DNA of 64,000 bases from Gemmatimonadota bacterium (GTDB lineage Bacteria; Gemmatimonadota; Gemmatimonadetes; Gemmatimonadales; Gemmatimonadaceae): NCBI GenBank assembly GCA_003155795.1, contig PMEM01000004.1, positions 1 to 64,000 on the forward strand, written 5' to 3'. This document shows, piece by piece, positions 8,286-38,032 of this stretch. The notes beneath the pieces were generated by a model. The model saw only the letters and a program-made list of their open reading frames with translations. It ran no database searches and had not been told where the DNA came from. The translations under genes and the position numbers were made by a program. How positions within the stretch are numbered: position 1 is the stretch's first letter; each line of letters starts with the position of its first letter.

Positions 8286-8444
8286 CCGAATTGCGAGCTG
8301 CTGGAAGATCGTGGCCGACGGTGCATGACAGTTAAGCAGCTCCTTGCTTATACTCTCTCGTGAATCTCCATTCTCTATCCATCTCGACCTCCGATCTCTC
8401 TCAGTCCACCTAAATATGGTGTCCTCGAAACCAACAGCAGCTCA
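8286..8444 (-). mobile_element. decayed IS3 terminus (solo remnant)
   Basis: This stretch is a degenerate copy of 190-349: it repeats the start of OrfA (no longer an open frame) and the outer end, including CCACCTAAATATGGTGTCC. It lies in the same orientation as the copy at the window start. The two therefore frame the 350-8285 segment like remnants of direct IS insertions. The remainder of this copy has been lost. Confidence 0.65.
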
Positions 8445-15834: not shown

Positions 15835-15855
15835 AATTGTAGGACGAAAAACTCG
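15835..15855 (+). promoter_or_regulatory. transfer-regulon motif copy (before ATPase)
   Basis: The sequence AATTGTAGGACGAAAAACTC matches the repeated motif (consensus GTAGGACTGACAACTCG) at most positions. It lies 113 bp before the GTG of the ATPase gene, with no gene between. It is one of seven copies, all placed before presumed transfer genes. Confidence 0.6.
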
Positions 15856-15968: not shown

Positions 15969-18032
15969 GTGGCGACACTTACTCGACCTGAAAATTCCCA
16001 ATCGATTACCGCGCCGCATCCAACGCGCCGCCCCACTGGGAGTTCTCGTGATGCGTCAGATCCCGCGGGGGACATTGGCTCCGCATTTCACGCCGGAGGG
16101 GACGGCGGAGCGAATAATGACGACATCTCAATGCTGCCTACTGGTACGTCCGAGCGCTTTGGCGTAACACTCACCGAAGCGCAATGGCAGGGGGCCGAGA
16201 CTCGTGTGGTCGCGCAACGCATCGACGGAGACTTTCGATTACTCTGGGCGGCGCTTGCCTTGGGATTTGTGGCCGAAGACGTGGTAGCAAATGCGATCGC
16301 AACTCAAACGCAATCGCAGCGATACACGCATGCCGTGCTTCCGACGTCTGGACAGAGTCCTGAAGCGCGTGACATGCTCAAGATCGACCTCCAGCAAGCC
16401 GCTGGCGTCGCTCCGATTGTGTATGTGGATGGGCGGCTCCGCGTGGTTGTTGAGGATCCGACCATGCGTCTCGCAAGACACGCTCTTGCAGAGCTCGCTA
16501 CGCATGACCCTGAATTGTTCGTCGCGTCACGGAGTGAGTTCGCGACCATCATCAAGCGAGTTGGGCAGAGAACAGGTGGTCTCATTGATTTCGCCGGCGT
16601 GCGAGACGAAGTCTCTGGTTATGATAATTCTGCTAACCCAGACGATGGTGCAGAGAGATCGGACAGTGTCGTCGTCGACACCGTCGACAAGATTCTTGCC
16701 GAGGCTGTAGCGCTTAAAGCGAGCGACATCCACTTTGATCCTCAATCGGACGGCCTGAGAATAGAGGTCCGAATTGATGGCGCCCTTCGCGAACTCTCGG
16801 TGATTGAACCGAACCAATCGCTCAACGCGCGTGAGGCGATCCGCTTCCGTGAACGCATTCTCGCTCGCATCGTGAATGGCTTGGGGAGGGCTCCATTCGA
16901 GGAAGCCAAACACCATCCTGTCGAGGGGCGTTTCTCCTGGAATACCGACGCTGGGAGGCCCATCGATGTGCGATTTTGTGCGGGCGGGGTTGGCGGTGTC
17001 ACAACTTCGGTGTTCGTCACCCTTCGATTACTCGGTATCGATGAGGTCGTGGTCGACATTGAGCACATCGGTCTCGAGCCCTCGCAGCTGCGTGCGGTAC
17101 TCGTAGCCCTCCGTTACACACATGGCTATGTGCTACTGAGCGGCCCGACTGGCTCCGGCAAGTCGACCTCCGCACACGCAATGTTGGCCTTCGTGAACAC
17201 GCCGAGCAAGAAGTGTGTCTCGATAGAGAAGCCAGTTGAGCGTATTCAGAAAGGCGTTCGGCAAATGGAGGTAACTGAGTCGGGTACCGATCCGAATAAG
17301 AACACGTGGGCGGGATTGCTTCGTCTTGTACTTCGCGCGGATCCAGACGTCATCTACTGCGGAGAAATCAACGACACCGTTACGGCGGAGGCAGCAATGG
17401 CGGCCGCAGACACGGGCCACTTGATGATCTCAACCGTTCACGCGAACACAGCCGTCGAAACGATGGGGCGCCTGCATGCACTCGACGTCAGTCTGCAATC
17501 AATGGCGCATCAGGGGCGGCTCATTGTAGCGCAACGCCTGGTTCCAACGCCATGTGCTTACTGCTCAAGATTAGCCGACGATAAGCAGCGTGAAAAAACC
17601 CGGAAGGTGCTGGGAAACCACGGCTATTCACCGAACCTTACATGGCGCGAAGTTGGGCTGACTGAGCTGGACTTGGCGGAGGCGACGTCGGTGCCAGTTA
17701 CACGAGGTGTCGTGAAGGGACGTCCAACCGTTCCGCCGGGGTTGGACGATCAGATCGTTGACTGGCCTGGCCTCACCGCGGCGCCTGGATGCAGTCATTG
17801 CGAAGGCAAAGGAACAGATGGTCGTGTCGCCGTATTCTCCGTTGTGAGCGTTCGCGATGAGTTCACGGTTGCTTTGCTCCGCAAGGAATTCGAGTCACTG
17901 ACCAAGATCGCGTACGAACACGGTACCCGATCGCTCCTCGCGGCCGCGTGCTGCAGGGTGATGCGTGGGGAGATCACGCTTACCGATGCCGTTATGTCAT
18001 TGGGTCCGGGCTTCGGGCCCTACACTCTGTAA
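15969..18032 (+). CDS. GspE/PilB-type secretion ATPase
   Basis: A 687-residue hexameric traffic ATPase of the type II secretion/type IV pilus family. A GTG start follows AGAGGA. Features: SDIHFDP at about 252, Walker A GPTGSGKST at 392-400, DPDVIYCGEIND (Walker B region) near 460, a histidine-box stretch STVHANTAVETMGRL near 490. Two CxxC pairs (CAYC, CSHC) form the zinc site typical of GspE/PilB. The first 230 residues are less conserved, as usual for the N-terminal partner-binding domain. No VirB11-type ATPase is visible in the window. This protein may therefore power pilus assembly with the two type IV prepilins at 40-41 kb, or serve the mating channel. Confidence 0.9.
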   Translation: MATLTRPENSQSITAPHPTRRPTGSSRDASDPAGDIGSAFHAGGDGGANNDDISMLPTGTSERFGVTLTEAQWQGAETRVVAQRIDGDFRLLWAALALGFVAEDVVANAIATQTQSQRYTHAVLPTSGQSPEARDMLKIDLQQAAGVAPIVYVDGRLRVVVEDPTMRLARHALAELATHDPELFVASRSEFATIIKRVGQRTGGLIDFAGVRDEVSGYDNSANPDDGAERSDSVVVDTVDKILAEAVALKASDIHFDPQSDGLRIEVRIDGALRELSVIEPNQSLNAREAIRFRERILARIVNGLGRAPFEEAKHHPVEGRFSWNTDAGRPIDVRFCAGGVGGVTTSVFVTLRLLGIDEVVVDIEHIGLEPSQLRAVLVALRYTHGYVLLSGPTGSGKSTSAHAMLAFVNTPSKKCVSIEKPVERIQKGVRQMEVTESGTDPNKNTWAGLLRLVLRADPDVIYCGEINDTVTAEAAMAAADTGHLMISTVHANTAVETMGRLHALDVSLQSMAHQGRLIVAQRLVPTPCAYCSRLADDKQREKTRKVLGNHGYSPNLTWREVGLTELDLAEATSVPVTRGVVKGRPTVPPGLDDQIVDWPGLTAAPGCSHCEGKGTDGRVAVFSVVSVRDEFTVALLRKEFESLTKIAYEHGTRSLLAAACCRVMRGEITLTDAVMSLGPGFGPYTL

Positions 18033-18141
18033 GGATCCGTGAGATGAATTGGGTTGCCGGGGGCGTAAACTGGCCGCATAGTGTGCTGTGTTGGAGTAGA
18101 GAGAACATCTCCGCTCGATCGCCATTTGCCCCTGAATAGCC

Positions 18142-19713
18142 GTGACCATTCGATACGACGGATCTAATCCAGACGAACGCGAGAACAGCGAGGAGGAGTC
18201 TGAGCAGGTGGACCCTGGGGAATCGTTGCCCTACGATCTTGAGGGCAATTCCGCATCTGGTGCCCCGGCCGCCGAGAGGCGTCCGGTAAACTCGTCGGTA
18301 CATGAGGATAGTGTAGAGGGGAAGGACCGCGACTTCACAGCGCGAATTGTTCGTTGGCGCACAAGCGGTGACGAGACCGAGCTGACCCCGTTGATTGACG
18401 AGTTCACGCGCAGGATCGAGCGCCAAGCTTCACGGCATACACAGAGGGGGCTCGATCAGTCCGACGTGATGGAGGCTGGCTACACAGCACTCGCCTCAAC
18501 GCTAAAAGAGTTCAACACGGATATCGGCGTTCCCTTCGGCGTTCTGTTTGCGCAGCACTTCGGCGCCAAGATTAAGGAACAGCGGGCACAACTTGAGGGG
18601 GCGATGGCACTTCGTCGCAAGACCTATCAGGTGCGGAGTAACGTGCTCATTGCTCGCGATGCAGTCCGGAAAGAACAGGTGAGTGCTTCCGGAGTCCGGA
18701 GTGCTGGGTACAAACGCGATCGAGATGTTGAGCGATTCTCGCTTCCATCTTCTTTTGATGATACGCAATTCGCGGCGCTCTTTGATGCGAGCGGAGCGGG
18801 CGGAGAGCCACAAGGCCCATCAGATGTACGGGCAGAAGCGTGGGCGTCGCTGTTTGTTGCTGTCGCAGATCACTACTGCCGAGTCCTGCCGGACGCGCCG
18901 GTGGCGACTCTCGAGCGTGCAGCGACAGCAAAGACCGTCCCGATCGCGAGTGCGCCTCCTGTGTCGCGCGGTGCGATGGAGCGCGCGCTTGCCGACGCGA
19001 TTGACTACGACATCACGATGTTTGCCCGACGCGGAGAAGAATACGACCCAGCTCCATCGCGTGAACGGTCGACTGCGATGACTCGAGAGTTCTACGAGGC
19101 TGTTGCCAAACGCTCAGGGACGACACCTGACCGTGCCCGCGCGCTTCTCGAGTCGTTTGGATCGACCCAGTCGTTCGACGCGACACCTGACAGTGGCGGT
19201 GGGAAGAAAGTCGGCCCTGCGCTCGGTGCCCGCCTTACCACGGACGAGGTGGATACAGTGGATGAGGAGCAGGTTGAGCCGATCGTCCATGGACTTCACC
19301 TCGTACCCACCGTATCCCGCGTGGCGTTCGTGCTGCATACGGGATTGGATGGATTCCGTCCGTTACCGCTGCCCCAACTCGCCCATGACTGTGGTATCTC
19401 GCAAGGCCAGGCCGAACGTTTGGTGGACGGGGCGAGAGAGGTTTTCGCCAACCCGGCTGTCCGTGAGGCTATCTTCGACGTCCAGAAGACCACGACTGCA
19501 GCAGCAGCCCGCGCTAAGGTGGCGTTAACGGCCGCAAAGTGGCACTCAGAGCGCGAAGCTACGCGGACCGAGACTATCGCTGCATCCCAGGGTGATGAGC
19601 GAGTGTCTGACGCGTCGGCCACGGCAGACTTGAGCGCCGGGTTGCAAGTGCAGGCAGATATGGAGAACGAGCCGCCGCATCGATCGAGTATGCAATTCGG
19701 GATGCTCTTATGA
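18142..19713 (+). CDS. divergent sigma-70-family factor
   Basis: A 523-residue protein (GTG start) with sequence like sigma-70 region 2 at about residues 81-147 (QRGLDQSDVMEAGYTAL, then FNTDIGVPFGVLFAQHF). A region 4-like helix-turn-helix is at about 389-435 (SRVAFVLHTGLDGF, PLPQLAHDCGISQGQAERLV). Both segments follow the pattern of RpoD-type factors. About 240 residues lie between them, with no clear region 3, and the first 60 residues are acidic. It would direct RNA polymerase to special promoters. It is encoded 110 bp after the traffic ATPase. A conserved motif before transfer genes could be its target, which is inference. Confidence 0.7.
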   Translation: MTIRYDGSNPDERENSEEESEQVDPGESLPYDLEGNSASGAPAAERRPVNSSVHEDSVEGKDRDFTARIVRWRTSGDETELTPLIDEFTRRIERQASRHTQRGLDQSDVMEAGYTALASTLKEFNTDIGVPFGVLFAQHFGAKIKEQRAQLEGAMALRRKTYQVRSNVLIARDAVRKEQVSASGVRSAGYKRDRDVERFSLPSSFDDTQFAALFDASGAGGEPQGPSDVRAEAWASLFVAVADHYCRVLPDAPVATLERAATAKTVPIASAPPVSRGAMERALADAIDYDITMFARRGEEYDPAPSRERSTAMTREFYEAVAKRSGTTPDRARALLESFGSTQSFDATPDSGGGKKVGPALGARLTTDEVDTVDEEQVEPIVHGLHLVPTVSRVAFVLHTGLDGFRPLPLPQLAHDCGISQGQAERLVDGAREVFANPAVREAIFDVQKTTTAAAARAKVALTAAKWHSEREATRTETIAASQGDERVSDASATADLSAGLQVQADMENEPPHRSSMQFGMLL

Positions 19714-19834: not shown

Positions 19835-20419
19835 ATGTCGACCTTTCGTTATCCCCAGTCTTCTGAGAGTACGAACGATCCAACACACGCACCGGCAGAC
19901 GCGCTTGATGTCACAATCGACCGCGAGCTCGATAGCGTCGTGGATGCGGCGCAGGCTGCGATGATTGAGTCTGTTTGTGGAATTATCCCTGTCGCGACTG
20001 TCCGAGTGTCAGATGATCCGGCAATTGGTCCTCGAGCGTGGACTGCTGAGTATGTCATTGCTGGCTTCGACGATCCTGACGTGGCTGCGCGGCCGCCACT
20101 CCATCGGTTCTGGATCACTCGTGCCGACCGGGACGGACCTTCGATCAATGCAGCGGAGCTCGACATACTAGCAATCGAGCTCGATTCGCTTGCGGCTGAC
20201 CCTGAAGTCGCGTGGACGAGTAAGGTCGATGACTCCCCTATCGGTACTCGCGCGGTTATCAGTTCAGCGATTGGAGTCTCGGGAACGTCCCGCGACCGGC
20301 TCATGGTGGGAATTGTTACCGATCTACGTTTGCGCGACGTGATGCATGGCCCTGTTGAAAGGGTACTCGGCCTTATCTACCGTCTCCTGGATTTGAGCAG
20401 CGCCAGTTTCGAGATGTAG
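19835..20419 (+). CDS. hypothetical protein, 194 aa
   Basis: A 194-residue acidic soluble protein (MSTFRYPQSSESTNDPTHA) with AAGGA close before the ATG. It follows the sigma-factor gene by 121 bp and is the last gene of the rightward set, converging on the coupling protein. No domain recognised; the central part (VATVRVSDDPAIGPRAW) looks beta-rich. Confidence 0.6.
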   Translation: MSTFRYPQSSESTNDPTHAPADALDVTIDRELDSVVDAAQAAMIESVCGIIPVATVRVSDDPAIGPRAWTAEYVIAGFDDPDVAARPPLHRFWITRADRDGPSINAAELDILAIELDSLAADPEVAWTSKVDDSPIGTRAVISSAIGVSGTSRDRLMVGIVTDLRLRDVMHGPVERVLGLIYRLLDLSSASFEM

Positions 20420-20499: not shown

Positions 20500-23400
20500 C
20501 TACGCTGCGTTCGACTTTCGACTCGTTCCCATGTGCTCTTCTACGCGCGAGATCACTGGCGTCGGATCTGTAGTGAGCCACTTGAGTCCAGCCGTCGCGA
20601 CTGGCGACGTGAGGAGCTCCGCCAGTGCGGTGCGTCCAGGCCCGGCCTGCGAAGTGTGCGAAGTCGCTTGCGTCGCATCGGCGGAATCGTAATTCACATC
20701 AGTCAGGAGCGAGCGCTTGACACGGAAGTCGATCTTAGGTTGATCATCTGTGAGCAAGCTTCGGAGCGCGTCGTCTGGATAAATCGCAGGATCGGTGATA
20801 GCGCGGAAGTCGAGAAACGACGCGCGTGACAATGCACCAAAGTCGGTGATTGCCTCGGCCAGTGCGAAGCGCCATGCCACTTCGGATGTGTGCGATACTG
20901 TGTTATCGCCAGCCAGCTCGTACCACCGCGCACGCGCAGATGCCCATCTTCGAGCGAGTTCTGCGACTCCTGTTGCCTCTCCCAGCCGGTCCCTAACATC
21001 CTCAAGGATGTTGTCCATCGCCATACATAGGGGAGGCGAGATAGTCGATCCTGATGCCGTCCAGAGGGCAAGCAATGCCTCTGGGGCCTGGATACCGCCA
21101 CAGAAGTCATCCAACTCAGCTTGGAGATCAGTGAGTAACTGCCTCACCTCATTCGGCGGCTGCGCGCCATACTTTGCTCTCCGCAGATGCTGATTAGTCC
21201 ACGAAATGAAGTCGAGAGCAACGTGCGCACTCAAGAACAGATACGCAGCAAGTGGGGCTGCGATCTCCGTTTCTGATATCGGTACAAGTGAATCTCCGGC
21301 CGCGTTCGGACGCACGACTACAGGAGCACCACCAGTCGGTCCGACAAGTCGGGCTCTCGCAGTCGCTTGCGCAATCTCCACCCAACCGCGGCGTCCCTCC
21401 TCCCACTCCACCCAAGGCATAGCCTGCTGTTGGAGTGGATACGAGCTGTCGAGCGCGAGAATGCTGTGATATAACCACGCCCAAGAGCGGATCGCCGGTA
21501 TAGTACTGATCGTCACCGGTTGGGGTGCGGCCGTACCACCCGGGCCTGCAGACGTTGCACCCATCGGGGTATTCGATTGAGATGTCTCCCCGTTCGCGGC
21601 CTTGCTCTTTGCGCTTCCTTTTTTCGCGGACGCTTCACGTCGCTCCTGAATCTCTTTCAGTTCCTTTGCGCTCGGGGGAGTGATCCCGAGTACGACAAGG
21701 TCCTCGACGTCGAGCGTGACAGGCTCCATTTCATAGTAGGTGGGCCGGTCGGGAGGTTCGATGAAATCGATGGTGTCGCGAAGTGGATCGACAGCATGCG
21801 GATCCAACTGCGCAACTCCATCCGGTCCAAGGACCTCATCGAACTGTGGCACCATATGAACCTGTCCCGTGCTTCTGTCTGTTACAGCAATACTTTCGGG
21901 TGAGCCATTAGCCCCCAACCGCTGCGTAAGGCGGGTACGCTTTACACGATGATACGGGCGATGGTTCTCACGCGGCTTAAGCTCTCCGGCGGCGTTGGGA
22001 GTGCAATTGAGTGTGCTGACCATAACCTCGTCGTGCCAATACTGCAGAAGCGAGAAGAAAAACGGTTCGGCAGCGGTCCCAAACGACATGGCTCCGAGCT
22101 TACCGAGCGATTCCCCGTTGATCATAACGTCGGTGACTTCGTTCACACGTAGGCGCTCAACGAGCTCAATCGACGTCCCGGTGCTGCCTCCTCCTGATTC
22201 ACCGCCGTGATTCTTATTACGGTTCTTCTTTTCGATAGATGCTACGCCGAAGCGCTCCGCAATTCGCTTGGCAGTGTCACCGCGAGTGCCTTTGAGGGCG
22301 ATCTGGTTCACCAAATTCTCGTCAACCGTTCCTGCGAGATCGCCGAGTAACCCCTTCCATTGTGTGTCACTCTGCGCGATAACAACAACAGCACCGCCAT
22401 TGGAACGGACGGTGGATAGGGTCTGTGGAAGGTCCTTATCCTTGAGCGTCGGGGCCTCTTCCATCAGCAGAGCAACGTCCGGCGACTTATGACGACGGGA
22501 GAACACTGTGTTCAAGACGAGCTTGGAAAAGGCGGATGCGATGAACTTGCCCGCAGCGCCCCGTGAGAGTGGGGCTCCGACCGTAAAAAGGGTTGGACGG
22601 TCCGCTACGGATCGGAAGTCGAATTCCGGATGGCTGAACGCCGTCGCTACCATGTCATCCGCGAACATCTTGAGCGAATTTTGCGTCGAGAGAACGATGT
22701 TCTCAAACGTGGTCTCCGGTTGACGAAACGTCGTGCCGAGCGTCCCCATCAGATCGCGCCACTCGCGCACACGGGCGCGCCAAATCTGCTCGAGCTCTGC
22801 CTCGCGTTCTTTCCAGGCAGTCGACGCGAAGTCTGGTGCCGGCTTTGGTGTTGACTCCTTACCGCGTGGCCATACCATTGCACGAGATTCCCGAACCCGG
22901 CAATGGATTTCGTAACCGGACCGATCGACAATATCGAGAGCGGTTGCGAGCGTGGTATTGCTTCGCGTACCGCGATGGGTGCGGGCCTGCACACCGTCGG
23001 CTTCGAGCCTTGCAGGTGCGGATGTTATGACAGATCTACAAGAGTCCCGCACTTCTTCCCACTTGATACGTTCGACCTCTGAGGCCCAACGACCATCGGA
23101 CGATGGCGCCACGCCAACCTGTGGTACCTCCGGCATGTAGGACTCCAATCGGACCGCGAACTCGACAAGAGCCTTCCCGCCCATCGCCACAATCTTGAAA
23201 AGTGCTGGGAGCGTGCAATAGCGACGGGGCGCGAAACGCATCATTCGCATCAGTCCTGCGAAGAACTGCTTTCCTGCGTCGTCGAAGAATTTATTTCCAC
23301 CACCAGCGGCGCCGGATTCCTGGCCACTATCCGCAGACATGAGCGCTTCTGCAATGATGTCGAGCTCGTCTCTGCGCGCTGAGTGTAGTAACTCGCAGCA

Positions 23401-24150
23401 CAGAGACTCGGCCGGGGTGTGTGGGGCAAAGTTGATCGTTTCGCGACCCCATGACCGCCACCAGTCAACGAGCCAAGGAAAGAACTCACACGGTTCCTTC
23501 ACGTCATTGAGGAATATCGATTGCCCTGACGTAGCGGCGATCCACGGTATCGCGAGCGAAAGTGTTGTTGTCTTCCCGGACCCCGTTGGTCCCATTACGC
23601 CCAGATGACGGAAGATCTCATCGTTCGGGATCCAGACCTGCATCGGATACCAACGCTCGAACCAATTTTCGGGAACGAGGATTCCGAGCCGGAAGGCACC
23701 AGCTCCGAACATTTGCCGTGATGTACGTGCTGCGATGTAGCCACCAGACTTTGACCACCCCATGCGCTGGAAGCCCCAATAGATCGTAGCTGGGGCTTCG
23801 GCCAAAACACCGGCGATGCGCCGTGGTACAGCACGCAGAATCGTGTGGAGAATTGTCTTCAAGTCTCGCTCGCTCGGCTTGAGCTTCGCGATCTCTGCGC
23901 GCACCGAGTACGTCGATACCGGCCCGGGCGGACGCTTCCGCGAGAGGTATGTCTTTCTGAGTGGAAAATCGTGCGGCCATTTCGGCAACTGGCTACGCGC
24001 ACGCCGACGTTTCTCCGCGCGAAGGAATCGCGGGGCCAGCGTGATGGCTGCGAAGCCGACAACGACGCTGCTGCCGACAAGCCAGTATACGAACGAGTGC
24101 AGATGTTGGAGATGGATCATAGCACGCGGAATGAGGCCGGCGTCGTTCAT
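20500..24150 (-). CDS. VirD4/TraG-type coupling protein, extended
   Basis: A 1216-residue type IV coupling protein, about twice the usual length. The N-terminus has a membrane segment (about 20-42). Walker A is GPTGSGKT at 187-194. A Walker B region (ALLMEEAPTLKD) and the family stretch VRSNGGAVVVIAQSDTQ follow near 560-600. These are the marks of VirD4/TraG/TraD ATPases, which bring the relaxase-DNA complex to the mating channel. The last 450 or so residues form an additional region with no family that I know; it is partly Ala/Pro-rich. A transfer-regulon motif lies 80 bp upstream. The gene stands alone, divergent from 24426. Confidence 0.9.
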   Translation of the reverse strand: MNDAGLIPRAMIHLQHLHSFVYWLVGSSVVVGFAAITLAPRFLRAEKRRRARSQLPKWPHDFPLRKTYLSRKRPPGPVSTYSVRAEIAKLKPSERDLKTILHTILRAVPRRIAGVLAEAPATIYWGFQRMGWSKSGGYIAARTSRQMFGAGAFRLGILVPENWFERWYPMQVWIPNDEIFRHLGVMGPTGSGKTTTLSLAIPWIAATSGQSIFLNDVKEPCEFFPWLVDWWRSWGRETINFAPHTPAESLCCELLHSARRDELDIIAEALMSADSGQESGAAGGGNKFFDDAGKQFFAGLMRMMRFAPRRYCTLPALFKIVAMGGKALVEFAVRLESYMPEVPQVGVAPSSDGRWASEVERIKWEEVRDSCRSVITSAPARLEADGVQARTHRGTRSNTTLATALDIVDRSGYEIHCRVRESRAMVWPRGKESTPKPAPDFASTAWKEREAELEQIWRARVREWRDLMGTLGTTFRQPETTFENIVLSTQNSLKMFADDMVATAFSHPEFDFRSVADRPTLFTVGAPLSRGAAGKFIASAFSKLVLNTVFSRRHKSPDVALLMEEAPTLKDKDLPQTLSTVRSNGGAVVVIAQSDTQWKGLLGDLAGTVDENLVNQIALKGTRGDTAKRIAERFGVASIEKKNRNKNHGGESGGGSTGTSIELVERLRVNEVTDVMINGESLGKLGAMSFGTAAEPFFFSLLQYWHDEVMVSTLNCTPNAAGELKPRENHRPYHRVKRTRLTQRLGANGSPESIAVTDRSTGQVHMVPQFDEVLGPDGVAQLDPHAVDPLRDTIDFIEPPDRPTYYEMEPVTLDVEDLVVLGITPPSAKELKEIQERREASAKKGSAKSKAANGETSQSNTPMGATSAGPGGTAAPQPVTISTIPAIRSWAWLYHSILALDSSYPLQQQAMPWVEWEEGRRGWVEIAQATARARLVGPTGGAPVVVRPNAAGDSLVPISETEIAAPLAAYLFLSAHVALDFISWTNQHLRRAKYGAQPPNEVRQLLTDLQAELDDFCGGIQAPEALLALWTASGSTISPPLCMAMDNILEDVRDRLGEATGVAELARRWASARARWYELAGDNTVSHTSEVAWRFALAEAITDFGALSRASFLDFRAITDPAIYPDDALRSLLTDDQPKIDFRVKRSLLTDVNYDSADATQATSHTSQAGPGRTALAELLTSPVATAGLKWLTTDPTPVISRVEEHMGTSRKSNAA

Positions 24151-24230: not shown

Positions 24231-24252
24231 CGAGTTGTTCGTCCTACAATTA
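24231..24252 (-). promoter_or_regulatory. transfer-regulon motif copy (before coupling protein)
   Basis: Read leftward: AATTGTAGGACGAACAACTC. It lies about 80 bp upstream of the coupling-protein ATG in the divergent intergenic region 24151-24425. It differs from the core only by GA for TG in the middle. A second, oppositely facing copy is at 24397-24416. Confidence 0.65.
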
Positions 24253-24396: not shown

Positions 24397-24416
24397 ATCT
24401 GTAGGACTGACAACTT
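24397..24416 (+). promoter_or_regulatory. transfer-regulon motif copy (before 24426)
   Basis: TGTAGGACTGACAACTT lies nine bases before the ATG at 24426, with GGAG between. The two copies of this intergenic region point away from each other, each toward the gene it precedes, which is how promoters or orientation-dependent sites would be arranged. Confidence 0.65.
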
Positions 24417-24425
24417 GGAGTGATT

Positions 24426-25373
24426 ATGGGCCATTCTCTCATGGCGGCCACGCCTGGGGCGCGCCCCGACGCCGCGGCATGGGGTGACGGGGATGCTTCG
24501 GCATTGCCGGCGCTCGACAACGTATCGCTGGCATGGCCGTGGCCGGGTGGTGTCGTCGCAACCCTCGACTTTGATCCCCAAAACGATGGGGACAAGGCTT
24601 ATGCTGCTATCGCCGTAGTCAGAGGAGCGACAACCATAGGCGGCGAGGCGATAGTGGATCGCATCGTATGTCTGAGTTGCGGATCATCCCGAGTGCGAGT
24701 CTCGCCGGCAACCAACTTTGGCGACGCCAAGACTCACACCGAGGCATTCGAAGTCTGGGCCGGAGAGTTCGCCGACCTTCACGACGGAGAGTCGTGCCTG
24801 GGGCCTTATGGCGATGAGACCGCTGATGCCGCGGGCGTCCTCACTGATGTTGTCACACCCGGCCTTGGCTCCGCTGAGGCGGTTGCAGACTTTATGGGCG
24901 CGTTCGCTCGATCCAGCCTGGATATGGATCAGGGAGAATGGAGCGTCATTGTAGCAACGCCGAACGGGGTCCGTCATGTCGATGCTGGTATCGCCGGTCT
25001 TGCGTCGAATGTGACGCTGGACGGGAGTCCACTCACCAGAGACCACGACATTGATATACGCGCAGTCGTAGCGAGGCTTGGTGGGTCTGTCGTGCTTCCT
25101 GACCGTCCTCGTATTCCGACCGTAGTTGCTGTAAGCAGCGATGGATATGATCTGAGCGTGGGAGTGCGGCGCTGGACAATACTTACTCCGGATCGTGTTC
25201 TCGTGTGTGAGACAGGGCCGGATCCAGAAGCTCCGACTACACTCGGTATTGCGCTCGGACTTGACGCTTACACTCGGAACGGCGACGTCACGCGCAGGTT
25301 CTTTCCTCCCGAGCGAGTGCGGGTAGCAATGATGCTTGCGGACGGTTTCGATACTGGCGCGGCCGCGCGGTGA
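24426..25373 (+). CDS. hypothetical protein, 315 aa
   Basis: About 315 residues from ATG at 24426 (GGAG eight bases upstream; a GTG six bases earlier is possible). It contains one CxxC (CLSCGSS near residue 78) and many Asp/Gly, and looks soluble and beta-rich. No family recognised. It is divergent from the coupling-protein gene and preceded by a copy of the conserved motif, so a role in transfer or its regulation is likely but unproven. Its stop overlaps the GTG of the next gene. Confidence 0.65.
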   Translation: MGHSLMAATPGARPDAAAWGDGDASALPALDNVSLAWPWPGGVVATLDFDPQNDGDKAYAAIAVVRGATTIGGEAIVDRIVCLSCGSSRVRVSPATNFGDAKTHTEAFEVWAGEFADLHDGESCLGPYGDETADAAGVLTDVVTPGLGSAEAVADFMGAFARSSLDMDQGEWSVIVATPNGVRHVDAGIAGLASNVTLDGSPLTRDHDIDIRAVVARLGGSVVLPDRPRIPTVVAVSSDGYDLSVGVRRWTILTPDRVLVCETGPDPEAPTTLGIALGLDAYTRNGDVTRRFFPPERVRVAMMLADGFDTGAAAR

Positions 25374-25999: not shown

Positions 26000-27013
26000 C
26001 TAGTTTAACCGTGCGCGAACAGCATCACGGTAGGCGATCGTCGCCTCACGAAAGTTCGGGTATTCGATTTGAGGAATACTAACGCCAGCGTCCGTTGCGT
26101 GGAGTGCTAAAATTCCGCACACCAGCGCCCACACAGACTCTCGGCTCTCATCGATCCACGTGTCGAGAACGTCCACTAATCTTTCAACACCGATGGGATG
26201 CGATTTAGGCGTTGTGGTTCGAGTCAAATCGAGTGAGGCAATGAAGAGCAAGGCTACTGCAGAGCCTATTGCGCGTTTCTCTGTCGCGCGATCCCCTTCT
26301 GCGGCTCGTTCTCCGAATATCCACTCACTTGCCGCGAGGTCACAGGCTCGCTCATGGTCAATTGAGTATTCCTTGATCCCTGGTGAGGTGTAGATGTGTG
26401 CGAGCTCGTGATGAAGCATGAAGGCGATCGCTAAGAAGGTAAGCTCGTCGACTACGCGCTCATCGGTAGCTTCGTCCATTGGCGAGAACGTGGAGCGTGC
26501 AACTGGGTGCGGTAGATTATTGGGCCAGAGTGAACCAGACGGAAGCTGCATCTCTGATCGAGCCCACGACAGCAGAGCTCGCGTCGAATTCAGTGCTGGA
26601 ATCATTGTAAGATCAGCGGTTGTCCCTGACGGCATTGTCCCAACCAAGTAGCGCGTGTAGAAACTCCAGTGCGCATAGGTCATTGCCCAGACGAGATCAA
26701 TTGTCCTCGTGCTTAGGATGATCACTTTCTGACCTGGCATTGCATACATCGCTGGCTTCTCCGCATCTACTACTTGTACTACAACCTCTGAGTACATCTC
26801 GAGCTTCGGTGCCCGTTCAGGTGCGACTCGCTCTAGAACATTCGGTAGGAATGGCAGTAGGTGCGCCGTCTTGGCGGTTGATTGCGTCGGGATGTCAAAT
26901 GTTGGCCCCATATTATCAGAATATCGCACACGGTAACGCGGTTTCGCAGTCACCGATGTCTGACACGACCCTTCACTCCCGGAATCCTGCCTTCGCAAGT
27001 CTCCGGAATTCAC
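26000..27013 (-). CDS. zinc metallopeptidase-like protein (HHELAH)
   Basis: A protein of up to 337 residues. The GTG at 27013 overlaps the upstream recombinase gene by 41 bp; a GTG at 26953 or an ATG at 26911 are possible starts. A zinc-binding HELAH (H202, E203, H206) is followed 13 residues later by DHERACDLAASEW, which can supply a third ligand. This pattern recalls the U49/Lit-type and related cytosolic peptidases; Lit cleaves EF-Tu in phage exclusion. No signal peptide, so it would act in the cytoplasm. It lies directly after a truncated tyrosine recombinase. The Lit-like comparison is tentative. Confidence 0.6.
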   Translation of the reverse strand: MNSGDLRRQDSGSEGSCQTSVTAKPRYRVRYSDNMGPTFDIPTQSTAKTAHLLPFLPNVLERVAPERAPKLEMYSEVVVQVVDAEKPAMYAMPGQKVIILSTRTIDLVWAMTYAHWSFYTRYLVGTMPSGTTADLTMIPALNSTRALLSWARSEMQLPSGSLWPNNLPHPVARSTFSPMDEATDERVVDELTFLAIAFMLHHELAHIYTSPGIKEYSIDHERACDLAASEWIFGERAAEGDRATEKRAIGSAVALLFIASLDLTRTTTPKSHPIGVERLVDVLDTWIDESRESVWALVCGILALHATDAGVSIPQIEYPNFREATIAYRDAVRARLN

Positions 27014-27896
27014 GGGGAGTTACAGTCGCGATCTTTGTTTCGTCTAATCCCGCTTCCCCGGCAAGTACTCTGAGCCGTTTATTGGACCTCTGCCGTGTGA
27101 TTCGGCATCCAGTCCACGGATGTACGAATAGATAATTCTCGTGACCTTTAGCTTTCTCTAAGGTTGCACGCAGTTCGATCCAACGCATGTAGTTAACGAG
27201 TAGCTCTCCTGAAATCGGATACATTCGGACGGCTCCGCGTGTATTCCTAATGCCTGCGAAGAGTTCGTTTTCTCCACGTAAGATGATGTCACTGAACTGA
27301 ATGTGGGTTGTCTCTGTGACTCGCGTTCCCCATTCATGCATAAACCCGTACAGTGCGGCGTCGAGAATGTAGAGCGCGGTATGGCTATCGAATTTGGGGG
27401 TTTTGGTTTTCGCCACATCTTCCGGCTGTTCCGATCCCTCGGAATCCTTGGGAACAGGGATTTGCTTCTCGATATACTGCAGCAGTAAGTCGAGTGTGCT
27501 GTCGGGAACCGTCGATTGCTCTGTCACTTCGAATCGCGGCACTTGATAACCGTCAACGGGATTCCCGGCAACGTGTTCATGTAGCACGAGATACATGAAG
27601 AACCGATGAAGCGCTGTGTGGTGCTTTGCAGCAGTACGTGGTGCCCATCGGCGCGAATCCGCGACGTTACCCATCTCCCGCGTTCGTTCATTGAAATAGG
27701 TGCGCACGGTTGATGCAGAGACATCGGCCAAGGCGGTGGCACCGAGTGCGTCAATGAACTCACCGAGGCTTTCCTCGTATTGTCGGACCGAGCCTGCAGC
27801 GAGCCGATTCTTGCTCGCGAGGAGATATTCGCGCATCAGTTGCTCGTTGGCCGGCAGAGGCCCGGAGGCTTCCGTGGAGATCATCCCGATGTCCAT
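26973..27896 (-). CDS. tyrosine recombinase lacking catalytic C-terminus
   Basis: About 307 residues (ATG at 27896). An N-terminal SAM-like core-binding domain (residues 20-120) is followed by part of the phage-integrase catalytic domain. The first catalytic arginine is present (EWGTRVTETT). The HxxR box appears as TPREFRRLA, with the histidine replaced. The protein then stops, so the second His/Trp and the nucleophile tyrosine are absent. No other frame downstream restores them. It is either a decayed integrase or a DNA-binding regulator made from one. It is divergent from an intact recombinase at 28057. Confidence 0.7.
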   Translation of the reverse strand: MDIGMISTEASGPLPANEQLMREYLLASKNRLAAGSVRQYEESLGEFIDALGATALADVSASTVRTYFNERTREMGNVADSRRWAPRTAAKHHTALHRFFMYLVLHEHVAGNPVDGYQVPRFEVTEQSTVPDSTLDLLLQYIEKQIPVPKDSEGSEQPEDVAKTKTPKFDSHTALYILDAALYGFMHEWGTRVTETTHIQFSDIILRGENELFAGIRNTRGAVRMYPISGELLVNYMRWIELRATLEKAKGHENYLFVHPWTGCRITRQRSNKRLRVLAGEAGLDETKIATVTPREFRRLAKAGFRE

Positions 27897-27928
27897 TGAT
27901 GGCAATATACGGATGTTTGACTTGTATG

Positions 27929-27954
27929 GGTAACGGAATTATAATTCTGTTACC
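27929..27954. promoter_or_regulatory. 26-bp inverted repeat between recombinases
   Basis: GGTAACGGAATTA followed by TAATTCTGTTACC is an inverted repeat with one mismatched pair. It lies 33 bp upstream of the truncated recombinase start, in the 160-bp divergent region. It could be an operator for a dimeric repressor or an accessory recombinase-binding site. Confidence 0.6.
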
Positions 27955-27963
27955 TTTTCTTCC

Positions 27964-28001
27964 GTCCGATAACCTCCCTTATCGGACGTAGACTATCGGA
28001 C
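27964..28001. other. recombinase core-like repeats (att candidate)
   Basis: GTCCGATAA (27964-27972) and TTATCGGAC (27979-27987) form perfect 9-bp inverted arms around a 6-bp spacer, followed by a third partial copy CTATCGGAC (27993-28001). Spacing of arms and spacer resembles a tyrosine-recombinase core site. A related sequence, GTCCGATA-CTCC-TTATC, is at 29163-29179, on the other side of the recombinase gene. Confidence 0.5.
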
Positions 28002-28056
28002 ATTAAGATGCTAACTTTGAGAGTATAACTCGGATTTCGTACCAACCAGATACTAA

Positions 28057-29106
28057 ATGGTAGATCAACTTCCAACGGATAGCCACGACGAAGCTGAGGT
28101 AGTGCCGGAGCGTGAGAGTCAGACGACTACGACGGCTATTGCCGTCGCTGGTCCACTTCTCAGCGCGGCCCATCGCACCGAGCTCGAGGAGCTGGCCGCG
28201 GGCGCCAAGCGCTACGTTGAAGCGGCGCTCTCCGCCAACACCCGGCGGGCGTATGCATCTGATTGGGCGCACTTTAGCAGCTGGTGTGAAGCGCATTACT
28301 TCACGGTGTGTCCGGCCGATCCCGTCACCCTTCACCTGTACCTGCAGGCTGAGGTTGAAGCCGGCCGGTCGGTACGCACGATCGAGCGCCACGTCGCGTC
28401 GATTCGGTGGTACCACCTGGATGCCGGGTATCCGTCCCCCGCTGATCATCCGATCGTCCAGCGCCAGCGCCGCGGAATGCGGCGCGAGCTAGGGCGGCCG
28501 CCCGAGAAGAAGACAGCCGCCATCCTCGAGCAGCTGCGAGCCATGCTGCCGGTCGCGCCGACGCTGCACACCGTGCGTGATAGGGCCATCCTTTTGCTCG
28601 GATGGGCCGGCGCATTCCGCCGCTCTGAACTCGCTTCGCTTGACGTCACGGATTGCCGTGCAGAAGGCCCGAAGCGCCTAGTGGTAACAGTCCGCCGAAG
28701 CAAGACTGACCAGGAGGGCCAGGGGATGCTGAAAGTCATACTCGCCGGCGAACACCCTGACACATGTCCGGTACGGGCACTTGAATTGTGGCGGAAGGCG
28801 GGCGGCATAACAACTGGCGCGCTATTCCGTCGGGTCTCGAAATACGGAACAGTGCTTGATGGACGTCTTTCCGATCGTGCTATCGCACGGATCGTCCAAG
28901 ATGGAGCGAAGCGCGCAGGGCTCGATCCAAAATTATACGGTGGTCATAGCCTACGATCTGGCTTCATGACTGAAGCGTATCTTCAGGACGTTCCGGAGGC
29001 TGACATCATGGAGCAGAGCGGCCATCGTTCGATCTCCGTCGCACGACAATATCGACAGGTCCGGGATCTCAGGCGACGTGACGCCGCCGGGCGCGTGGGA
29101 CTCTAA
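28057..29106 (+). CDS. tyrosine recombinase (site-specific integrase)
   Basis: A 349-residue phage-integrase-family recombinase with all expected catalytic residues: R188 or R189 (AFRRSELA), K216 (RRSKTDQ), H297 and R300 (GHSLRSGF), H323 (SGHRS) and Y332 (ARQYRQV). The N-terminal core-binding domain covers about residues 45-145. It would cut and rejoin DNA through a 3'-phosphotyrosine link, for integration and excision or multimer resolution. It is divergent from a truncated relative. Inverted repeats lie in front (27964-28001), and a similar sequence lies 56 bp behind it (29163-29180). Confidence 0.85.
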   Translation: MVDQLPTDSHDEAEVVPERESQTTTTAIAVAGPLLSAAHRTELEELAAGAKRYVEAALSANTRRAYASDWAHFSSWCEAHYFTVCPADPVTLHLYLQAEVEAGRSVRTIERHVASIRWYHLDAGYPSPADHPIVQRQRRGMRRELGRPPEKKTAAILEQLRAMLPVAPTLHTVRDRAILLLGWAGAFRRSELASLDVTDCRAEGPKRLVVTVRRSKTDQEGQGMLKVILAGEHPDTCPVRALELWRKAGGITTGALFRRVSKYGTVLDGRLSDRAIARIVQDGAKRAGLDPKLYGGHSLRSGFMTEAYLQDVPEADIMEQSGHRSISVARQYRQVRDLRRRDAAGRVGL

Positions 29107-30868: not shown

Positions 30869-31543
30869 TCATACTGGAAACCAACATTCAGGTCCATCAT
30901 TACTTGAACGGTTGACGAGCGGCGATACCTCGTATGCGTGCAGGGTATCGCTCGGATCTGGAATCAGTAAATCTTGCAGCGACCCAACCTTCGCTGTCGG
31001 ATCCAGCCAAGCATCTTGCGCGGCGCCGGTGAGGATCACAGGCATGCGGTCGTGAATCGGTGCCATCAAATCATTTGGTGTCGTCGTTATGATCGCGCAT
31101 GTGATGAGTCGCTTATCTCCCTCGCCCCATGTCTCCCAAAGTCCTGCGAGTGTGAAGGGTGCGTTGTCGGGTCTGGCAATCCGCATTGGCGTCTTCGACC
31201 CGTCCGGATCGCGATGCCACTCGAAGAATCCATCGATGACGATCAACCCGCGACGTTTCTTGAATGCGCTCCGGAATGCCGGCATAGTTGCAACCGTCTC
31301 AGCGCGGGCGATGCTGAGCTTTCTACCAATGCTTGGGTCCTTCGCCCAAAACGGCACTAAGCCCCATCGCATCATTCTGGACTCACGCCGGTGGTCGCCC
31401 AGTTCGGTGAAGAGCAAGAGATCATCCTGGGGTGGGATGTTGTATCGCGGTCGACGGCGTGTGGGTGCCGCTGGAACGCCAACTGATTGTAAGTAGGCAG
31501 TGAGCTCGTCTTCATCGAGCGCGAGTGATGCGCGGCCACACAT
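30869..31543 (-). CDS. SRAP-family protein (HMCES/YedK)
   Basis: A 224-residue SOS-response-associated (SRAP) protein, which crosslinks through Cys2 to abasic sites in single-stranded DNA and shields them. The catalytic MCGR N-terminus is intact. The family signatures YNIPP, ARAET, GFFEWHR and IHDRMPVIL (with the active-site histidine) are all present, and the length is typical. Such genes are common on mobile elements, where single-stranded DNA appears during transfer. It may also belong to the DNA-damage cargo together with umuDC at 37.5-39.4 kb. Confidence 0.9.
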   Translation of the reverse strand: MCGRASLALDEDELTAYLQSVGVPAAPTRRRPRYNIPPQDDLLLFTELGDHRRESRMMRWGLVPFWAKDPSIGRKLSIARAETVATMPAFRSAFKKRRGLIVIDGFFEWHRDPDGSKTPMRIARPDNAPFTLAGLWETWGEGDKRLITCAIITTTPNDLMAPIHDRMPVILTGAAQDAWLDPTAKVGSLQDLLIPDPSDTLHAYEVSPLVNRSSNDGPECWFPV

Positions 31544-31751
31544 ATGGATCTCCTGCTCTGTATTCAGAAATTCATTGCTCGGTCGCCGGCGGGGAAGATA
31601 AACCTCTCGCCAACGAGCTTTACTCTCTCCCTTTAACCTACGCTACCACGTGTCAACCACATTGAGCGACTTCGCACGAGTGGCAGTCTCACTACCACTG
31701 GGGTGTAACACACCTGTACGATTCTAGCCCTTTCTCGACCGACGATATGAG

Positions 31752-32642
31752 CTAGCTCGCTTGCACGAAACCGCCGAGTTCGCCAGAATAGGTCGAAACC
31801 AGCGTGAGTGGCGCAGATACCTTCTTATGCGCGAGCATTGACTTCATTTGTAATGCATTCACGCCAGCCTTGCCCAAGCTGTGATTGTTCGTGATGACAT
31901 ACGTTTCCTTCGCTTGTTCTGCGATCGATTCTGCACGTTGAACCCACGGCTTTAATTGTTCAGGTGTGTAGAGGTAATCGTAGCGCTCTTGCACGTTCGC
32001 TTCTTTGCGAAACCACTCTTTGTAATTGCGCCCATGCACGCGGATGTATCCGACAGCAGATGTCACCTTCGCGCTTGGTTTGATACTCTTCTTGAAGAGC
32101 GGCTGGTCAATGTTGACGAACCCGATACCGCCCTCTGCGAGTGATTCGTAGAACTCCGGTACATTCCAAGACTCGTGGCGTATCTCGACAACGAGAGGAT
32201 ATTGACTGAACGCACTCACAATGTCGGCGAGCCAAGCTCGATCTTCCTCGGTGCGCTTGAACGACCAGGGGAACTGTACCAGTACCGCGCCGAGCTTTCC
32301 CGCCTGTTGTAGACGGTCGAGCGCTACGCACACCTCTCGCTCGTCCCCCTTTGTCCACGCTTCATCGCGCTCGTGCGTGAAACGTTTCCAGAGTTTGATT
32401 GTGAATCGGAAATCGGGTGCGTCTTCCGTCTTCGAGATCCATCCCTCCACGACGGCCTTTGTCGCCGGCCGATAGAAGGTCGAGTTCACTTCTACGACGT
32501 CAAAATATTCTGCCAGATAGGCGAGTCGGTCCACCCCGCGCGGCATCGGCTTAGGATACAGCGTTCCGTTCCAGTCCGCGTATGACCACCCGGCCGTCCC
32601 GACTCTGATGGAATCAGCATTATTACTTCGATGAGCGGGCAT
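31752..32642 (-). CDS. DUF72 family protein (YecE-like)
   Basis: A 296-residue DUF72 protein with a predicted TIM-barrel fold. It opens VGTAGWSYADWNGTLYP, a strong family signature, and contains VEVNSTFYR, QFPWSFKRT, VEIRHESW and YVITNNHSLGKAG. The biochemical role of this family is not settled. It lies downstream of the large NTPase gene (55 bp gap, same strand) and upstream of the SRAP gene, in a leftward cargo cluster. Confidence 0.88.
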   Translation of the reverse strand: MPAHRSNNADSIRVGTAGWSYADWNGTLYPKPMPRGVDRLAYLAEYFDVVEVNSTFYRPATKAVVEGWISKTEDAPDFRFTIKLWKRFTHERDEAWTKGDEREVCVALDRLQQAGKLGAVLVQFPWSFKRTEEDRAWLADIVSAFSQYPLVVEIRHESWNVPEFYESLAEGGIGFVNIDQPLFKKSIKPSAKVTSAVGYIRVHGRNYKEWFRKEANVQERYDYLYTPEQLKPWVQRAESIAEQAKETYVITNNHSLGKAGVNALQMKSMLAHKKVSAPLTLVSTYSGELGGFVQAS

Positions 32643-32696
32643 TCCCGAGAGGTACGCACCAGCTGTGCCCGCGCCGGCGGCTCGTTGGAGAGTTCA

Positions 32697-35600
32697 TTAG
32701 TTGCCGGATCTTCTGCTGGATCTTCGCTTAGCTGCGGTGCGCCGACTCTGCGCGCTACGATCGCTTTGCTGTCGAGCCACTCGTGAAACCGGTTCATCGT
32801 TCGAGAGGTGAGCATCCACTACCACTACCCGCACGGTTCTTCCGGCGTCAGAGAGCTCGCTGGCTTGCTGCGTGAGCTCTGACCGCAGGTCATCGAGCGC
32901 ACCAAGACGCGCGCTCCGATTTCTGTCCGGCCCGTCGCGCCACGCGTCGCACGTGTACCAGCCGACAAAGTACACGCCATACCGGTAGTCCAGGCCCTCA
33001 GCGAGATAGCCGTCGACGAGTTGTGATCGCATCGCCCTCCGGACGTTGGGATGCCATGATCCCTTCACCTCGATCACCAAGCTCACTGGACCTAATGCGT
33101 GCCGGTCGGCTCCGTACGCGCTCGGCATCGCCGTGACCGTAATGTCTGTGCGACGACCGGCACTCACGCCACGTACTCCCCGGTCGATGACAAGCTCGCA
33201 GCCAACCACGACACCGGTTGCTGCTAGGTCGCGGCGTAGGTGCCGCACGACATCATCGGCTAGATGGCCCTCGTCCTTCGGCCGAAACTCAGTCGGGGAC
33301 AATCGATCCCATAGAGTCGGTGCAGCCGGCAGTTCTCCCTGCATCTGAGCGCCGTAGCGTTCCAATGACTCGACCACGGCCGTCAGGAGCTGCTCTCCGC
33401 CGCGAACCAGACGGCTTGTACGCTGTTCGGCTAACGCGAAGATGTCAGAGATCGGCGGCGCGTTCCAGCGCGCACTCTGGAGGACAGCTCGCGCGCGGAG
33501 CAATGGCTGCGAGATGTAGGGTCGTTCGGGGAATGCGCGCGCAACCTTCGCGAGAGCATCAAGGGAGGCGCTCGTACCCCAGCCTTCGAGTGTCGATAGC
33601 AAGCCATCCCGCCAGTGAATCACGTTGTCACGCCAGCCTGGCGAGAATACGTGGACGTGCCACGGGTCCTCGTGCGGTGGAAAGGTACCAGCCACCCAGA
33701 TGTACAACTCCGCCACCTGATCCTCGCCAAGCCGCTCTCGGATGTCAGGTATAGGATCTTCCCGATAGGCGAGGAGGCGACGTACAAGCTCGTGCGCGAA
33801 CTTGTCGGAGCGGAGCATCACGGGCCACACGTCGGACCAACCGGCGTCAGGCGCATGAGTAAGAAGTGCTGCCGCTGCAGCGAGTGAGCGCCCACGGCGC
33901 GGACCGCGAACTGGCAGTCTGGCAAGAAGGGCGCGCGCAAGGATTCGCGCACGGGGCACGTCATGCGCGAGTAGCGGCCCAAGGAGATCATCCAAAATCG
34001 AGCCTGGCGTGTCCATGGCCTCACACCGTGCAAGCAACTCCGTTACTGCGAGATCCCGTGCCTCACCTGGCTCCTGTATGACTCCGTTCCATGCTTGCGG
34101 ATTGTGCGGCGCTCGAGGCCGGCCGAGCGCCGCACGCATTGCATCGACGGGGAGCTCTACTCGTTGCTCGTTGCGTTCGGAGTCTACAGCGCTATCAAGG
34201 AGTCGGCCGAGTGTGCGCGCAAATACTCGCGGCGCCACCGCCTGCGCACGCCTGAGCAAAGCCTGATGCGCGGCGCTCTCATCTTCGTCGTTCGTGTAAA
34301 GGCTTATACCGCACAGTACCGGGATCCATTGGCGCCAGACCGCCGGTGCTAGTGATGCGTCACCGTCGAGAAGACGGAACGCATGGTATGCCGGGCCCCC
34401 GACGGGATCAAATCGCACGGAGCGACTTGGCGCCCGTCCACGCCAGCGTGCACGCTCTAGAAACTCCTTGGCTACGGCCCGGATGCGATCGCGCGTACCG
34501 GGCGAGAGCGTGCCCCACAATAATGTCTCGCGCAAGTCGCCCGGACCCCAACCTGAGTGTTGCTCGGTCTGTGAGCGGCCTAGTTCCCACGCCACAGCCG
34601 GCCATGCTGGCCAACGGTGGCGCGCGCCCTCGCGCTCGTGGTGGTCCAGAATCTCGCCGACACGCGCTTCCGATGGGACTGGTGTTACCGCCCTACGCAC
34701 GAGCGCCGCCTCGCGCTCCGTGCGGCGACGCTCGGCCTCACGCTGGTGATCATGGTACTGCCGTGCCGCGGGACCATCAACCGGCATCGGCCGAAACCAC
34801 GCACCGAATGCGGTTTCGATCGTTACCTCGTGACGCTGCGCATAGAGGTATTCCACGTGCGTCGAGTTCGTATGGTCAAAGAGGTGCTGAGCAATTTCAC
34901 CCCAAGTCTCCCGGATGGGTGAGCCCTCAGGGGCGGCGAGCCAGCGCTCGATTACCCAGGGCAGGTCCGCCGGGAGGACTAGTGCCGCGTGATCGCGATC
35001 GAGCCAACCCACGACGCTCTGCGCGATACGGCGCGCGTGGTGCTCACCAGCTATCGTCTCCGCCGATGATGTCGCGTCGGTTACAATGTTCGGGTCGGCC
35101 GATACCGCGCCGACGGTACCGGTCTCATTGAATCCTGCCCCTTCGTGATTTGGTAACTCCAAAGGGCTCCGGAGAGCGAGGCGCGGATCAGTCTCCACCA
35201 AATCCCGCGCGAGCGCACGACGGGCACCCTCATTGGCAGTCAGCGTAGCGTTCAGTTCCTTTAAGGCGTCGCGCTCGATCAGTGGATGGTACTGCGTAAT
35301 GCGTCGTCGCACGATCTGCACGAGCTCCGCACGCACCTCCGGACTTTCAGCATGACGGGCCGCGTCGATCAGTATGCGCTCCTCGAGATTGGAGGCGCCC
35401 ACACCACCCGCATGCCCCATGTGATCCACCCACCTGAGCCCTTCCACCAGGTAGCTGGGGGTGAGTGATTGCGCGAGCATCAACAGGAAACCATCGTAGC
35501 TACCAGAGCGGTTTGGCCGACGTGTACGGGTCAAACATGCAAAGAGTGCATCGGGCGCAAGCGACCGCCATGTTGCGCTGAGAGCCGCTCCCTTGATGTC

Positions 35601-37412: not shown

Positions 37413-37564
37413 CCCTCAATTTAGCCGTCACCACATGTAGTTCTCACTCCAGCGCTCTCAGGGCATGGGTCGGCGGCGCATATGCCTTGGTTTGGAGCCC
37501 GGTGTGAGAGCACCCCTCGTGAGAGTGCCCTCCCTTTCGGTGTCTGTTCGGGATAACTTCGAGG

Positions 37565-38032
37565 ATGGCCTCTTTGCGAATACCCGAGCCGGACTTCCAG
37601 GTTCTATTCAAACTGGACGGCGCAGAATGGGAGCCAGTCTTTATCCCCGTGTTCTCCGATTCCGTGTCGGCGGGCTTCCCCTCCCCGGCGACGGACTACC
37701 TCGAGGAGACGATCGACTTGAATCGCCATCTGATCACGAACCCACCAGCCACTTTCATGGTGCGCGTCTCAGGTGATTCGATGACAGAGGCCGGGATCCA
37801 TCCAGGCGACCTACTTATCGTTGATCGGAGCCTGACGCCAAACGCCGGAAGGGTGGTTGTCGCGGCCGTCGACGGCGAACTGACCGTGAAGAGATTGCGG
37901 AATCTCCGCGGCACTTGGACGCTCATGGCTGAGCATCCGGGATATCCAGATATTCCGCTGTCAGAGTCGCTAGACGTCGTCGTATGGGGTGTCGTTACGT
38001 ATGCACTTCATAAGGTGACGTTGCATGGATAG
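37565..38032 (+). CDS. umuD: UmuD-like autoprotease subunit of DNA polymerase V
   Basis: A 155-residue S24/LexA-like peptidase. The self-cleavage site A36-G37 (SVSAGFPSP), the nucleophile S72 ([10 protein letters not shown]) and the general base K109 (LTVKRL) are all visible. After RecA-stimulated cleavage it would form UmuD'2C, an error-prone translesion polymerase. It overlaps the umuC start by eight bases. I could not find a convincing LexA box upstream, so its control may differ from E. coli. Plasmid-borne umuDC pairs are common on conjugative elements. Confidence 0.88.

Follow-up and report, generated by a model that had tools for sequence, protein, structure and literature searches.

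The Locus and Its Probable Plasmid

The window analyzed here is a 64-kb stretch of DNA that forms the first part of contig C14 (196,270 bp) of an uncultured soil bacterium. On its forward strand, an ORF at 18142-19713 starts with GTG, has a strong coding score and encodes a 523-aa protein that we assign, from profiles, BLASTP, hhalign and structural models, to the sigma-70 family as a divergent member; its coordinates are exactly those given in an earlier note on this DNA, and the coding statistics bear that note out. Upstream, in the same direction, lies the gene of a PilB-like type IV pilus assembly ATPase (15969-18032, forward strand; T2SSE, E = 8e-68; TIGR02538 type_IV_pilB, E = 2e-73), and the two genes make up an operon at 15969-19713. 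Downstream, an ORF of 194 aa (19835-20419, forward strand) has no Pfam match and is, by virtue of its position, a candidate co-regulator. It is followed on the reverse strand by the gene of a VirD4/TraG-type coupling ATPase of 1216 aa (20500-24150; T4SS-DNA_transf, E = 3e-19). The protein had been described as lying in a transfer region next to a traffic ATPase, a setting that is borne out on both sides: a PilB-type ATPase upstream and a VirD4/TraG-type ATPase downstream on the opposite strand.

Across its full length, C14 encodes a T4SS (VirB4/TraG ATPase, VirB6, VirB10/TrbI, a VirB2-like protein and the VirD4/TraG coupling protein), a second, TraD-like coupling protein and parts of a type IV pilus (PilB- and PilT-type ATPases, PilC/GspF and pilins), together with megaplasmid genes for a ParA-type ATPase, ParB, PRTRC proteins, a polymerase III beta subunit and primases. 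With this gene content, C14 looks like a conjugative megaplasmid. A second MAG (G003, Gemmatimonadetes bacterium palsa_1236) contains contigs C92, C314, C24, and C68, which were 99.9-100% identical to C14 where compared, in pieces scattered from position 1 to 196270. The two MAGs represent different species, with three alignable housekeeping sigma-gene loci being ~76-83% identical, and the presence of a near-identical plasmid in both may reflect either recent interspecies transfer or cross-binning. A distant T4SS also occurs in G015 (C14:15001-61284), a genome from another genus of the family, with 26% identity in VirB4 and 25% in the coupling protein; no recognizable copy of the PilB-like ATPase or of the 523-aa protein's gene was found in the G015 conjugation locus.

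Elsewhere in the window, positions 30869-39359 carry SOS-type genes encoding a SRAP peptidase, a DUF72 protein, a 1571-aa AAA protein, a UmuD-like S24 peptidase and a UmuC-like polymerase, and adjoin two tyrosine recombinases (26973-29106). Near the start of the window, a 115-nt direct repeat (235-349 and 8330-8444; 81% identical and 8.1 kb apart) flanks a transposase-like integrase (2406-3098) and a 12-nt tandem repeat (2226-2273).

A Diverged Sigma-70-Family Protein

The earlier note had recognized region 2-like and region 4-like blocks in the protein, and held that profile searches matching neither sigma region would refute the reading. Such searches were run and the reading stands, both blocks being recovered by profile, BLASTP and hhalign matches. 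The NCBIfam profile TIGR02937 (sigma70-ECF superfamily) matched residues 83-433 over profile positions 5-159 of 165 (E = 1.1e-6), with a score of 28.4 bits against a curated cut-off of 42.9. When the genome was searched in six frames with the same profile, the protein was returned at E = 9e-7 with positions 5-159 covered; entries of similar score mostly covered just the C-terminal helix-turn-helix part. Pfam Sigma70_r2 gave E = 0.074 with the whole protein and 0.0073 with the region-2 piece, at scores (13.3 and 16.5, respectively) below the cut-off of 24. As judged from its sequence, the protein is thus a divergent outlier of the sigma-70 family and not a recognized member.

The best pairwise BLASTP match was to a chromosomal RpoD/RpoS-type factor of 291 aa from a sister genus within Gemmatimonadota, which aligned with residues 313-431 (45.8 bits, E = 6e-10) and, in a second, collinear piece corresponding to region 2, with residues 96-132; the best of 300 shuffled versions of the 523-aa sequence reached 24.6 bits. 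Alignment by hhalign to a 30-sequence sigma profile gave E = 8.9e-5. A strict profile built from RpoD-like phage sigma factors alone did not separate the protein from its shuffles, and therefore the protein is divergent; as a search tool, this RpoD-only profile was dropped as too strict. Region 2 of sigma-70 is thus found in the sequence, with the residues of region 2.3/2.4 not conserved, and the helix-turn-helix of region 4 is preceded by region 3.2 (BLASTP, residues 313-431, and hhalign). We consider the protein very probably a sigma-70 derivative. No homologue with the same architecture or insertion was found in IMG/VR, in plasmids, in phages, or among 288 genomes of the order and 390 of the phylum; the searches of order and phylum returned only chromosomal RpoD/RpoS-type factors matching regions 3-4, and a scan of genome contigs returned solely the identical copy in palsa_1236.

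Domain anatomy was read from an alignment with 30 phage sigma factors. The region 2-like block occupies residues ~75-150 (18364-18591, forward strand; Pfam Sigma70_r2, alignment and model), within which region 2.1-2.2 is continuous and recognizable (GDETELTPLI...RGLDQSDVMEAGYTALASTLKEFN; full stretch RWRTSGDETELTPLIDEFTRRIERQASRHTQRGLDQSDVMEAGYTALASTLKEFNTDIGVPF). Region 2.3 is very altered, reading FGVLFAQHFGAKIKE where the family has FISYAVWWIRQ, and the near-invariant RpoD-type block (SYAVWW and its neighbors) is absent from the alignment apart from F132. The next stretch, RRKTYQVRSNVLIARDAVRKE, resembles the start of region 3 and leads into an insertion of ~120 residues within that region (residues ~181-303; 18682-19050, forward strand; alignment and model), of which residues 184-274 were predicted with low confidence. 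Region 3.1-3.2 then follows at residues ~304-372 (19051-19257, forward strand; BLASTP, E = 6e-10), where SFDATPDSGGGKKVGPALG aligns with SLDEPASAMDGGRTLGETL in the stretch REFYEAVAKRSGTTPDRARALLESFGSTQSFDATP. Finally, region 4 with its helix-turn-helix lies at residues ~373-437 (19258-19452, forward strand; BLASTP, hhalign and model) and reads LVPTVSRVAFVLHTGLDGFRPLPLPQLAHDCGISQGQAERLVDGAREVF; its region 4.2 recognition helix is changed from TRERVRQ to SQGQAER. The gap of about 240 residues reported between the two blocks is right in size, but region 3 is retained within it: from the alignment, the gap is region 3 plus the ~120 inserted residues. By the same token, the ECF (group 4) pattern of regions 2 and 4 with no region 3 does not describe a protein whose residues ~304-372 match regions 3.1-3.2. 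An alignment with sigma factors split into pieces misplaced region 2 and was discarded.

Structural models pointed the same way. A single-sequence AlphaFold2 model was poor (pLDDT 43), and sigma factors made up nearly all of its top 25 Foldseek matches, none of them individually significant. A model built with the sigma alignment reached pLDDT 80-90 in region 2 and 93-98 in region 4, and among the 50 fold-search matches listed for it all were sigma factors (Z 9-11); its region 4 superimposed on that of SigC (2o8x) with a VIA Z of 9.9 and an rmsd of 2.2 over 61 residues. Since sigma factors were present in its alignment, this model is partly circular and is used as support only. Because region 2.3/2.4 and the region 4.2 helix are so altered, promoter recognition and initiation by the 523-aa protein cannot be assumed, and with its altered region 2.3 the protein could have lost the ability to melt DNA alone.

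A Conserved Motif Upstream of Transfer Genes

A conserved motif had also been noticed, and it proved both real and stronger than first seen: a ~22-bp element, A-N3-GTAGGACTGACAACT-CG, occurs in 15 places on the 196-kb C14. Repeat detection and a genome-wide pattern search found 12 occurrences, 11 of them on C14 and the twelfth on C52, and the core GTAGGACTGACAACT has 12 C14 sites with at most 2 mismatches, compared with 0.2 expected in 196 kb. By PWM, 15 C14 sites score at least 22 bits and all are intergenic; the next best, at 15.9 bits, lies inside a gene. The conserved positions are an A at -4, GTAGGAC and ACAACT, followed by CG or CA. By PWM, the surroundings of the motif showed no further conserved block at the spacing typical of sigma-70 promoters; the conserved bases form a single compact block and not a -35/-10 pair separated by 16-18 bp. 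The motif is also directional: 14 of the 15 sites face the gene that follows, no more than 260 nt away (random intergenic rate 0.32; P ~1e-6). Four of the 15 finish 7-10 nt ahead of an ATG (24401, 49691, 63870, and 116630; P ~3e-4), other starts have a copy 80-250 nt away, and the divergent gene pairs at 24233/24401 and 99208/99454 have one copy per gene. Of 60 relatives, 58 lack the exact core; the only two that have it are the genomes carrying the gene and plasmid, in effect one plasmid sampled twice.

Several of these sites fall in the window. Upstream of the ATPase-sigma operon, GTAGGACGAAAAACT (15839-15853, forward strand) has 3 core mismatches and scores 27 bits by PWM. A copy with 2 mismatches (24233-24247, reverse strand) precedes the coupling-protein gene, and an exact core (24401-24415, forward strand) stands 10 nt before the ATG of the ORF at 24426-25373. 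Exact cores likewise lie upstream of the type IV pilin-like genes at 41062-41574 and 40519-41019 (41699-41713, reverse strand), upstream of the VirB6/TrbL-like gene at 51589-54048 (54084-54098, reverse strand), and 8 nt before the ATG of 62950-63861 (63870-63884, reverse strand), the first gene of the cluster that encodes VirB2 and VirB4 (57680-61036). In the T4SS cluster, a weaker copy (49691-49705, reverse strand; 3 mismatches, 22 bits) precedes the ORF at 48901-49683, whose ATG is 7 nt away. The operons headed by the motif cover type IV secretion, the type IV pilus, the coupling protein and the sigma gene itself, and PilT, PilC, TraD-like and SLT genes are also among the targets. Nearly all DNA-transfer genes of the plasmid share the motif.

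Outside C14, the genome-wide search found a single copy, at C52:36297-36311, with 18 nt separating it from the lytic transglycosylase (SLT) gene that follows. Conjugation systems usually have lytic transglycosylases as partners. Over 20 kb, the C52 sequences of the two MAGs agree at 99.97%, and C52 may belong with C14 to one plasmid.

Several other identities for the motif were considered and set aside. A symmetric operator was rejected, the motif being weakly palindromic and divergent genes having separate, oriented copies, as was a sigma-54 type promoter, there being no GG/GC pair at the proper spacing. Two viral contigs matching the motif and its 3' flank have the same sequence as each other, lack the conserved upstream A in the right place and have no gene in common with the plasmid, and their matches were taken as chance.

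A Candidate Sigma Factor for Plasmid Transfer

As the best reading, we propose that the 523-aa protein is a dedicated, autoregulated sigma factor of the plasmid's transfer regulon, to which we give about an even chance. The protein is tied to the motif by position and co-occurrence only: among the plasmid's sigma-like genes, its gene alone lies within the transfer region, in an operon headed by the motif. In this proposal, a highly diverged, plasmid-borne member of the sigma-70 family, dedicated to the megaplasmid's transfer program, would use region 2.1-2.2 and region 4 to bind host core RNA polymerase and take it to the ~22-bp element, so that the genes of the T4SS, the type IV pilus, the coupling protein and the lytic transglycosylase are turned on. 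The copy at 15839, before its own operon, would provide positive feedback, such that a small rise in the factor might switch on the whole regulon. Sites with an ATG 7-10 nt downstream would give short or leaderless transcripts and, should transcription of the four nearest genes begin at the ATG, ACAACT would sit at the place of a -10 element. The conjugation regulon suggested in the earlier note therefore fares well in that the motif is plasmid-specific, directional and heads both the transfer operons and the ATPase-sigma operon; against it stand the altered regions 2.3/2.4 and 4.2, the motif's form as one compact block, two competing sigma-like readers and the failure to find a homologue with the insertion in 390 genomes of the phylum, in plasmids or in phages.

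These competitors, both encoded on C14 outside the window, bear on whether the motif is real but read by another plasmid factor, the 523-aa protein then having another target or none. The first is a second divergent sigma-like protein of 398 aa (C14:176414-177610), whose region 4 matches a Gemmatimonadota sigma factor (BLASTP, E = 7e-8; hhalign, E = 1.9e-4) and whose gene lies downstream of a motif site at 174312 and of an ArdC/thymidylate-kinase fusion gene. The second is an ECF-like sigma factor of 261 aa (C14:194334-195119), which at 53 bits exceeds the TIGR02937 cut-off; however, its gene lies at a distance from the transfer genes, and no scored motif site accompanies it. An unrecognized DNA-binding protein could also be the reader. 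Nevertheless, of the sigma-like genes only that of the 523-aa protein stands within the transfer region and in a motif-headed operon there, and we regard a different reader as unlikely.

Alternatively, the protein may be sigma-derived but no longer initiate alone: as an activator that binds DNA, or as an appropriator of RNA polymerase, it would use region 4 and the core-binding surface of region 2 and act at the motif jointly with a host sigma factor. Loss of the region 2.3 aromatic block with retention of regions 2.1-2.2 and 4 would suit such a role, as would a motif made of a single block in place of a -35/-10 pair. However, many ECF factors initiate despite lacking the WW pair, and copies that end 7-10 nt ahead of start codons are nearer to the gene than a classical upstream activator site should be, provided that the starts are correctly placed. 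We consider this alternative unlikely. It is far less probable still that the block functions within the mRNA 5' end, as a site for an RNA-binding protein or small RNA, instead of as a promoter: the motif is directional and near start codons at four sites, but it heads operons, lies 80-250 nt from other starts and occurs as paired copies in divergent intergenic regions, and no Rfam family was found in the window. Finally, a chance resemblance of some unrelated helical DNA-binding protein to sigma factors, to which the shuffle-like score with the strict RpoD-type profile and the scores under curated cut-offs might point, is scarcely credible and already disfavored given that two matches are collinear and correctly ordered (E = 6e-10 and E = 1.1e-6) and that the real protein scores 45.8 bits against 24.6 for shuffles.

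A dedicated sigma factor for conjugation had been called unusual, which is fair, although other plasmids are known to encode sigma factors that serve plasmid regulons. SigN (ZpdN) of the Bacillus subtilis plasmid pBS32 is plasmid-encoded and only weakly similar to known sigma factors; the regulon it directs is plasmid-specific, with a distinct consensus, and it activates the gene that encodes it (PMC6751061); an element-encoded sigma factor with its own regulon is thus already known. SigN answers DNA damage, leading to cell death, and its regulon is rich in replication and nucleotide genes. The 523-aa protein may resemble SigN: its gene shares a contig with megaplasmid genes, and a motif copy precedes its own operon (15969-19713), from which autoregulation would follow if the motif is, as we suppose, the promoter that this protein reads. 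Unlike SigN, its motif heads conjugation genes, it retains region 3 with a ~120-residue insertion, and its activity is predicted.

The order of regions 2, 3.1-3.2, and 4 is that of group 1-3 sigma-70 factors (RpoD, RpoS, SigB/F, FliA), from which the protein differs in the region 3 insertion, the lost FISYAVWWIRQ block, the changed recognition helix and a motif that is not a -35/-10 pair. Like ECF factors (TIGR02937 superfamily), it has regions 2 and 4 and finds its best curated-profile match there; unlike them, it keeps a region 3-like stretch, is more than twice the usual length and scores under the family cut-off. The SetCD regulon of SXT/R391 elements (PMC4344509) offers a further comparison. 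As in that system, the genes for transfer would answer to one element-encoded regulator by way of a repeated element in their promoters. SetCD is an activator that works with a host sigma factor, whereas the candidate regulator here is itself sigma-like. The collections searched and a limited, non-exhaustive survey of the literature yielded no sigma-70 derivative that unites a conjugation regulon and a compact one-block target with a region 3 insertion and loss of the region 2.3 signature.

More tentatively, the megaplasmid may possess at least two diverged sigma-70 factors (18142-19713 and C14:176414-177610) that use single-block, often leaderless promoters with no separate -35 element, making transfer autonomous from host promoters; we think this possible, but not probable. 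With its inserted region 3, lost melting motif and one-block promoter, the system would test how far sigma-70 can diverge and yet work, and the 16 motif sites are a ready set of promoters for such a test. If the factor does read the motif, the mobile element would carry the key to its own promoters, and could run conjugation after entering a new host, regardless of which promoter rules apply there.
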